DNA of 64,000 nt from Sporolactobacillus sp. THM19-2 (lineage in GTDB: Bacteria > Bacillota > Bacilli > Bacillales > Sporolactobacillaceae): positions 1 to 64,000 of the forward strand of contig NZ_SEMC01000005.1 in the NCBI RefSeq assembly GCF_004153195.1, written 5' to 3'. How positions within the stretch are numbered: the first letter of the stretch is position 1; every line of letters starts with the position of its first letter. This document shows positions 8,598 to 51,783 of this stretch, piece by piece. The position numbers and the translations under genes are program-made. Under the pieces are notes generated by a model that searched no databases, was not told the origin of the DNA, and saw nothing but the letters and a program-made list of their open reading frames with translations.

Positions 8598-8765
8598 GCC
8601 CTGATCCTCAGGGCCATGAGGGTAAACAAGCAGGCCGGGTGAGGAATAACGGCCCGCAGGATGGGTTCAAACAAACAATCAGTAGGGGATGCGCGCAGGC
8701 TGAAAACGTGGGCGCCCTGTCGCAACGCCTGCACGAGCACGTCCTGTGCGTCAACCCTCCTACTG
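8598..8765 (+). ncRNA. Candidate structured RNA of unknown family upstream of the ABC transporter operon
   Basis: A non-coding stretch with unusually strong nested pairing. GCCCTGA-TCC-TCAGGGC (8598-8614) and GGCCG/CGGCC (from 8632) form 5' hairpins. Then CAGTAGG (8680-8686) pairs with CCTACTG (8759-8765), GCGCAGG (8693-8699) with CCTGTGC (8743-8749), ACGTG (8706-8710) with CACGT (8738-8742), and GGCG with CGCC at the tip. The internal loops are purine-rich (GGGGAT, CTGAAA). The region is GC-richer than neighbouring intergenic DNA. There is no T-tract at the end, and I do not recognise a riboswitch or ribozyme core. The strand is assigned from the downstream operon; an alternative is DNA-level repeats or a decayed gene. 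Confidence 0.45.
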
Positions 8766-50144: not shown

Positions 50145-50417
50145 ATGCAGATCCAAGAGAGAGATGGTTTAATCATCTGGCTTTATCATACGAAGCACCT
50201 GCGTATTCTGAAGCGTTACGGGTATCTACATTACGTTTCAAAAAGAATGAAATATGCGGTATTATATTGTAACCATGAAGCGACGAATTCCGTCGTTGAA
50301 AAATTGTCTAAACTTAAATTTGTCCGGAAGGTTGACTATTCTCATTTGCAGGAGATAAAGACGACATATGAGAATGGGAAAACAGAGAACGAAGAAAGAG
50401 ACAGTGTCTTTAATTAA
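50145..50417 (+). CDS. ylbG: YlbG family protein (DUF2129)
   Basis: A 90-residue protein with RDGLIIWLYHTKHLRILKRYG and HYVSKRMKYAVLYCN, FVRKVDYSHLQEIKTTYE, the conserved DUF2129 blocks (given as separate pieces). Start: ATG 50145, 10 bases after AGAGGTG; the frame is open into ricF, but that is a shadow. Place and size match B. subtilis. Function unknown. Confidence 0.88.
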   Translation: MQIQERDGLIIWLYHTKHLRILKRYGYLHYVSKRMKYAVLYCNHEATNSVVEKLSKLKFVRKVDYSHLQEIKTTYENGKTENEERDSVFN

Positions 50418-50507
50418 TATGGTGCGCAGGTTGCAGGCGCCGCCGGAGGTTTCGTTTTTCTGAACCATTTTTTCAACAATAGTTTTTCCTCTTCTTTTAA
50501 AGTATGA

Positions 50508-50672
50508 AAAAACCCCGCAGACAAGCTGCGGGTGTCTTCATGCATCAACAGATGCAAGACAATGGGAGAGGAGAAACCGGCGGAAAACTTATGGGGAAAC
50601 GTAAGTATCCGCGGTTGGGCCAACATCACTAGAGATGTTGCCAGCAGCTATTATTCACTTGTTTGCGTGTTT
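50508..50672 (-). ncRNA. Candidate small RNA on the minus strand between ylbG and rsmD
   Basis: No gene reads leftward here, yet a strong minus-strand intrinsic terminator exists (CCCGCAG/CTGCGGG, loop CTTGT, then GTTTTTT; 50535-50508). Upstream on the same strand: a hairpin GTCTTGCATC/GATGC..AAGAC (about 50557-50533), an open C-rich stretch TTTCTCCTCTCCC (50576-50564), a small hairpin ACTTA/TAAGT whose loop shows TTTCCCC (about 50604-50585), and CAACATC/GATGTTG (50640-50621). A weak promoter TTTCGA-N16-TATAGA (about 50698-50671) could start it. C-rich loops are typical of Firmicutes sRNAs that pair with ribosome sites. All inference from sequence. Confidence 0.5.
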
Positions 50673-50713
50673 CTATACATGAAGGATCTATTTTCGAAAG
50701 GATTGTCTGACAT

Positions 50714-51783
<1,070 letters not shown>

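Follow-up and report, generated by a model that had tools for sequence, protein, structure and literature searches.

The locus examined here is the gap between ylbG and rsmD (ylbH) of Sporolactobacillus sp. THM19-2, which lies within a window of 64,000 nucleotides, the whole stretch of DNA that was analysed. Both flanking genes are read on the plus strand, and the features between them are placed on the minus strand (Table 1). No credible protein-coding frame occurs on that strand in 193 homologs, in agreement with an earlier sequence-only reading, which had seen no leftward gene before rsmD. The leftward intrinsic terminator that this reading had reported is indeed present, as a hairpin of seven pairs, six of them G-C, followed by GTTTTTT. 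Because three terminator-like sites were observed within 2.3 kb, against a shuffle expectation of 1.8, the terminator is weak evidence by itself. A strict detector found terminators on the RNA strand in 133/193 homologs and on the other strand in 25/193, and it missed 60/193, among them some visible long-loop terminators.

The consensus of sigma-F-type promoters is GTATA-N14-16-GGNNANANT. The window sequence, GTATA-N15-GTGAATAAT, agrees with it at 9/10 positions, one scored base being off, and a promoter of this type at 9 or 10 of 10 is found in 180/193 homologs, compared with 0.5% of shuffled regions (mononucleotide shuffles, 10 per homolog). It is thus predicted to be of the sigma-F/sigma-G type, the two sigma factors being indistinguishable by sequence. 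A sigG gene is present in the same genome (contig C61, 75991-76749); it lies on the contig that carries csfG, about 25 kb away. Because the promoter sets the start near 50643, the last 25-30 bases or so at the right end of the 165-base interval originally proposed as RNA belong to the promoter; the three hairpins described upstream of the terminator in that interval were confirmed.

Table 1. Positions of the predicted small RNA, its signals and its flanking genes (window coordinates).
Feature	Position	Strand	Basis and remarks
ylbG (DUF2129), flanking	50145..50417	+	PF09902, 96.1 bits
csfG sRNA	50507..50643	-	~137 nt; promoter and terminator, RF00516 on opposite strand; start placed from promoter, uncertain by a few bases
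Intrinsic terminator with U tract	50507..50532	-	hairpin 50532-50514
Third hairpin	50533..50561	-	predicted fold; outside covariation count
C-rich single-stranded linker UUUCUCCUCUCCC	50564..50576	-	mean unpaired probability 0.87
Central hairpin	50575..50616	-	predicted fold; 99.1% of cells paired (90 homologs)
C-rich loop GUUUCCCC	50593..50600	-	mean unpaired probability 0.81
5' hairpin	50618..50642	-	predicted fold; 6/6 counted pairs with changes on both sides (90 homologs)
-10 element GTGAATAAT	50650..50658	-	4/5 positions of GGNNANANT; 15 bases from -35
-35 element GTATA	50674..50678	-	sigma-F/sigma-G-type; same layout in 180/193 homologs
rsmD (ylbH), flanking, divergent from csfG	50714..51298	+	PF03602, 189.4 bits

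The minus strand of the 165-nt interval folds at -54 kcal/mol (z = -4.1), a stability reached by 0/200 shuffles. The plus strand is more stable still (-61.9 kcal/mol, z = -5.1); because both strands fold well, folding energy is uninformative on the strand and was dropped as a strand test. Within the predicted RNA the TTTCCCC loop and the linker UUUCUCCUCUCCC are exposed, as the sequence-only reading had suggested, the mean unpaired probability of the whole molecule being 0.40 against the far higher values of these two stretches (Table 1).

Homologs were gathered by a pattern scan of public genomes (at least 119 loci) and by Rfam-model searches, from which only the best-scoring hits were taken. 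A profile gave 197 hits among 204 sequences, the window included, of which 193 are distinct; by the same profile, 5 of the 119 pattern loci (L013, L018, L020, L027 and L044) are non-homologs, and one locus outside the training set (L083) nevertheless has a hit. Four loci (L120, L134, L083 and L102) were excluded before the alignment set was built, which left 121 non-redundant sequences; 90 of these were aligned and hand-trimmed for length. The covariation count takes in 16 pairs from the 5' and central hairpins and omits one weak two-pair RNAalifold helix. Across these pairs 97.8% of the cells are paired, and 71 cells are changed on both sides, compared with 18.5 in shuffles, although the window's family is partly shifted in the central hairpin of the alignment, so that double changes at columns 70/103 are to be read with care. 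Compensatory base changes and conservation of the C-rich loops in relatives had both been proposed as tests of the candidate, and both were found: the linker is present in 193/193 homologs and UUUCCCC in 190/193. This motif conservation is partly built in, because the pattern behind L001-L119 contains both C-rich motifs. Among the 78 distinct Rfam-model loci, best-scoring hits only, the linker is present in 78/78 and UUUCCCC in 75/78.

The identity of the RNA is given by the Rfam covariance model RF00516 ("ylbH leader"), whose single match in the whole genome covers 50504-50617, read on the plus strand, and scores 67.2 bits against a cut-off of 50. In Bacillus subtilis the RF00516 element has been identified with CsfG, an sRNA from the ylbG-ylbH gap; a northern blot for the ylbH strand was blank, and the reverse complement gave a strong signal (PMC3574147, in the part available). 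RNA-Seq of Bacillus licheniformis placed CsfG at the same position, with ylbG and ylbH given as its antisense genes (PMC3871023, in part). The window RNA resembles B. subtilis CsfG (S547) in its place between ylbG and ylbH/rsmD, in its strand by all tests run, in its C-rich loop and linker, and in its forespore-type promoter and terminator, and differs from it in a central hairpin whose stem is shorter and altered in the Sporolactobacillus-like family. The features of a CsfG are thus found together: the RF00516 match, the ylbG-ylbH/rsmD gap, predicted transcription opposite to the flanking genes, a C-rich loop and inter-hairpin stretch, and an endospore-forming host. The minus-strand RNA is therefore almost certainly a CsfG ortholog, and it is an ordinary member of a family of a kind already known from Bacillus. 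Of the original proposal of an unannotated sRNA candidate, the minus-strand sRNA with C-rich pairing motifs stands and the novelty does not, given the RF00516 match and the northern analysis in the accessible part of PMC3574147. What the present analysis adds is a strand-resolved comparison of 193 homologs and the observation that the RNA tracks a sporulation gene across a sample of the class.

The Rfam entry places the same element on the plus strand and makes it a leader that acts in cis on rsmD (ylbH), contrary to the strand evidence. That description accords with the strand of the RF00516 match, with the slightly better fold of the plus strand, and with the listing of the ylbH motif among cis-regulatory elements in PMC4342826. 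In addition, RsmD was located in 189 of 196 loci, a set that includes the window's own (L120), and in 182 of the 189 csfG sits upstream of the gene and diverges from it. In the other 7/189 loci, however, csfG is flipped relative to rsmD, with the promoter at 9/10 in 7/7; a leader would there run antisense to rsmD, which breaks the rule that it always precedes the gene and shares its direction. The helices point the same way: read on the minus strand, the 90-homolog alignment holds 87 G-U cells against 11 A-C cells, roles that are swapped in the plus reading. Promoter and terminator both lie on the minus strand, the B. subtilis northern was negative for the rsmD strand, and RNA-Seq of strain FZB42 did not recover the leader (PMC4634765). 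An rsmD leader therefore appears extremely improbable. Both the name and the type of RF00516 look wrong, the model being opposite to the RNA detected by northern, and the genome-based observations above provide several reasons for reversing and reclassifying a family under which the locus is now annotated as a leader of rsmD.

CsfG might instead act in cis, as an antisense RNA that silences transcripts reading through from ylbG into rsmD. Any transcript of this kind would be the complement of csfG from end to end, and ylbG and ylbH are the antisense genes of CsfG in PMC3871023 (in part). Perfect complementarity, however, needs no sequence conservation, whereas the C-rich stretches hardly vary, and the orientation to rsmD is reversed in the 7/189 loci noted above; we consider this role highly unlikely. 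A conserved small protein encoded on either strand has a slighter chance than either the leader or the antisense role. On the plus strand a start reading MGKRK recurs in 177 of the 191 homologs that have the ATG, with GGAGG before it in 121/191, but this conservation is explained by the position of the start inside a conserved hairpin, and the frame that follows varies freely from 3 to 103 codons and is broken in some homologs. On the minus strand of the 193 homologs no start recurs in more than 35, and a Shine-Dalgarno-like site precedes one in 8/193. A conserved peptide was accordingly rejected on both strands.

RsaE/RoxS had been offered as an example of an Rfam model to check. CsfG has been grouped with RoxS and FsrA as sRNAs with C-rich regions, and a similar predicted structure has been reported, in the available part of a paper that gives no target or role for CsfG (PMC8216469). 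The RsaE/RoxS model RF01820, however, gave no match at E <= 0.001 in the whole genome, with a positive B. subtilis control, and was absent from a permissive Rfam scan of the ylbG-rsmD gap; moreover, B. subtilis has RsaE elsewhere, between yizD and yjbH, besides CsfG (PMC3574147, in part). Membership of csfG in the RsaE/RoxS family was thus rejected and has next to no probability, and the organism may lack RoxS altogether. RoxS/RsaE and FsrA are like CsfG in being sRNAs with several exposed C-rich regions, and the working principle is likely the same; RoxS/RsaE differs in its genomic place and in its regulators, as well as in the missing RF01820 match.

The distribution of the RNA falls within that of a sporulation gene. 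RF00516 matched 26/26 genomes of the family, 188/199 of the order and 102/151 of the class, with stricter filters, which lose weak matches, in any search that covered over 40 genomes. The sporulation gene spoIVA is present in the window's genome and in 115/151 class genomes. On the assumption, indicated by the genome handles, that both surveys drew the same 151 genomes, spoIVA is found in 102/102 RNA-bearing genomes, and in 13 of the 49 others, 36 being without it. One of these 13 (G219) shows spoIVA fragments only. Eleven order genomes are without the RNA, and 4 of them are also without spoIVA. One class genome (G261) has neither RNA nor spoIVA, in contrast to the rest of its family, in which both are present in all 10 of the other genomes listed. 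A minus-strand csfG model of our own was run on 26 genomes; at E 1e-5 or better it matched both included positives (G020 and G129) and 2 of the 18 RF00516-negative genomes with spoIVA above its cut-off (G227 and G334). Sporulating class genomes without detectable csfG therefore number 13 of the 115 that bear spoIVA, or 11 after this model, which recovered 2 of the 13. Its weak matches in G063, G131, G092, G176, G242, G231 and G311 (E 0.01 to 0.6) were not counted as csfG; the match in G092 (locus L208) sits in apparent coding sequence. All six sampled genomes of one genus (f39/g48: G063, G102, G131, G158, G182 and G207) carry spoIVA, and none of the six has an acceptable csfG by either model. 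This genus, with spoIVA and without csfG, offers a natural test of which functions depend on the RNA.

Taken as a whole, the evidence makes it quite probable that csfG is a trans-acting forespore sRNA of endospore-forming Bacilli which pairs with ribosome-binding sites. We infer that it is transcribed and functional in the Sporolactobacillus. RNA polymerase with sigma-F or sigma-G, the forespore sigma factors, would start leftward near 50643, and transcription would end at the terminator near 50507. The resulting RNA, as prediction and conservation suggest, would present two unpaired C-rich stretches, the loop and the linker, and these would pair with G-rich ribosome-binding sites of forespore mRNAs and so lower the translation or stability of the targets. 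This last part draws on the anatomy of the RNA and on the analogy with RoxS/RsaE; we favour such pairing in the forespore as the mechanism and consider it somewhat more likely than not. CsfG expression has also been reported in anaerobic growth and upon glucose exhaustion (PMC8216469, in part), and possibly under oxidative stress (PMC4409812, in part), so that action in the forespore only is uncertain.

The strong conservation of CsfG across spore-forming Bacilli is not matched by any target in the literature examined, that is, in the accessible parts of papers from one collection. One of these states that sporulation was not obviously impaired when such RNAs were disrupted and, in the part available, gives no mRNA target (PMC9147052); another, in a passing statement that cites a 2011 paper, has CsfG and another factor regulate sporulation, germination and competence mRNAs (PMC12456014, in part). 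A narrow search for linker complements in the window's genome and 26 family genomes likewise found no conserved target. In the window's genome there were two wobble-tolerant complements, against three for a reversed control; the linker-complement sites are csfG itself and an exact one that forms the ribosome-binding site before a gene for adenine deaminase (548 bits to TIGR01178). A 12-base linker complement before a start codon occurs eight times in 6/26 family genomes, compared with four for the reversed control. The only one to recur is the adenine deaminase site, confined to the two genomes of the window's species; the other six fall at various genes or reading frames, identified by reading only. 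The adenine deaminase site and the others were treated as chance.

An unchanged linker in 193 homologs from which no conserved complementary target emerged could also mean that the C-rich stretches serve chiefly to bind a protein, either a translation regulator or an RNA chaperone, for which csfG would act as a sponge, and B. subtilis CsfG does co-precipitate with Hfq. Its level, however, is only modestly reduced without Hfq (PMC3574147, in part), the parts of RoxS that pair are exposed C-rich stretches (PMC4409812, in part), and the target search was narrow; we regard a protein sponge as rather unlikely and favour pairing with ribosome-binding sites. A more speculative and somewhat less probable idea is that CsfG damps translation throughout the forespore, its anti-Shine-Dalgarno linker and its loop binding loosely to many ribosome-binding sites, or to a shared RNA-binding protein, rather than to a single mRNA. 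Such a damper would explain an invariant linker without a conserved specific target, and, if real, would help to quiet protein synthesis during spore maturation.

Variant forms of the RNA occur among the homologs. Paenibacillus alkalitolerans (L039) has a second, shorter csfG-like copy at 3466-3411, about 2.8 kb from the main copy, in which the linker is kept and the loop reads UUUCCU, not UUUCCCC. A divergent csfG in genome G129 (L205, approximately 1515-1660) has CUCCCCCC in the loop and an unchanged linker. Elsewhere in the window, two other Rfam families matched on the plus strand: a group II intron (RF00029) at 56-125 with 49.5 bits, and a Bacillaceae-1 RNA (RF01690) at 8684-8750 with 36.5 bits, barely above its cut-off of 35.
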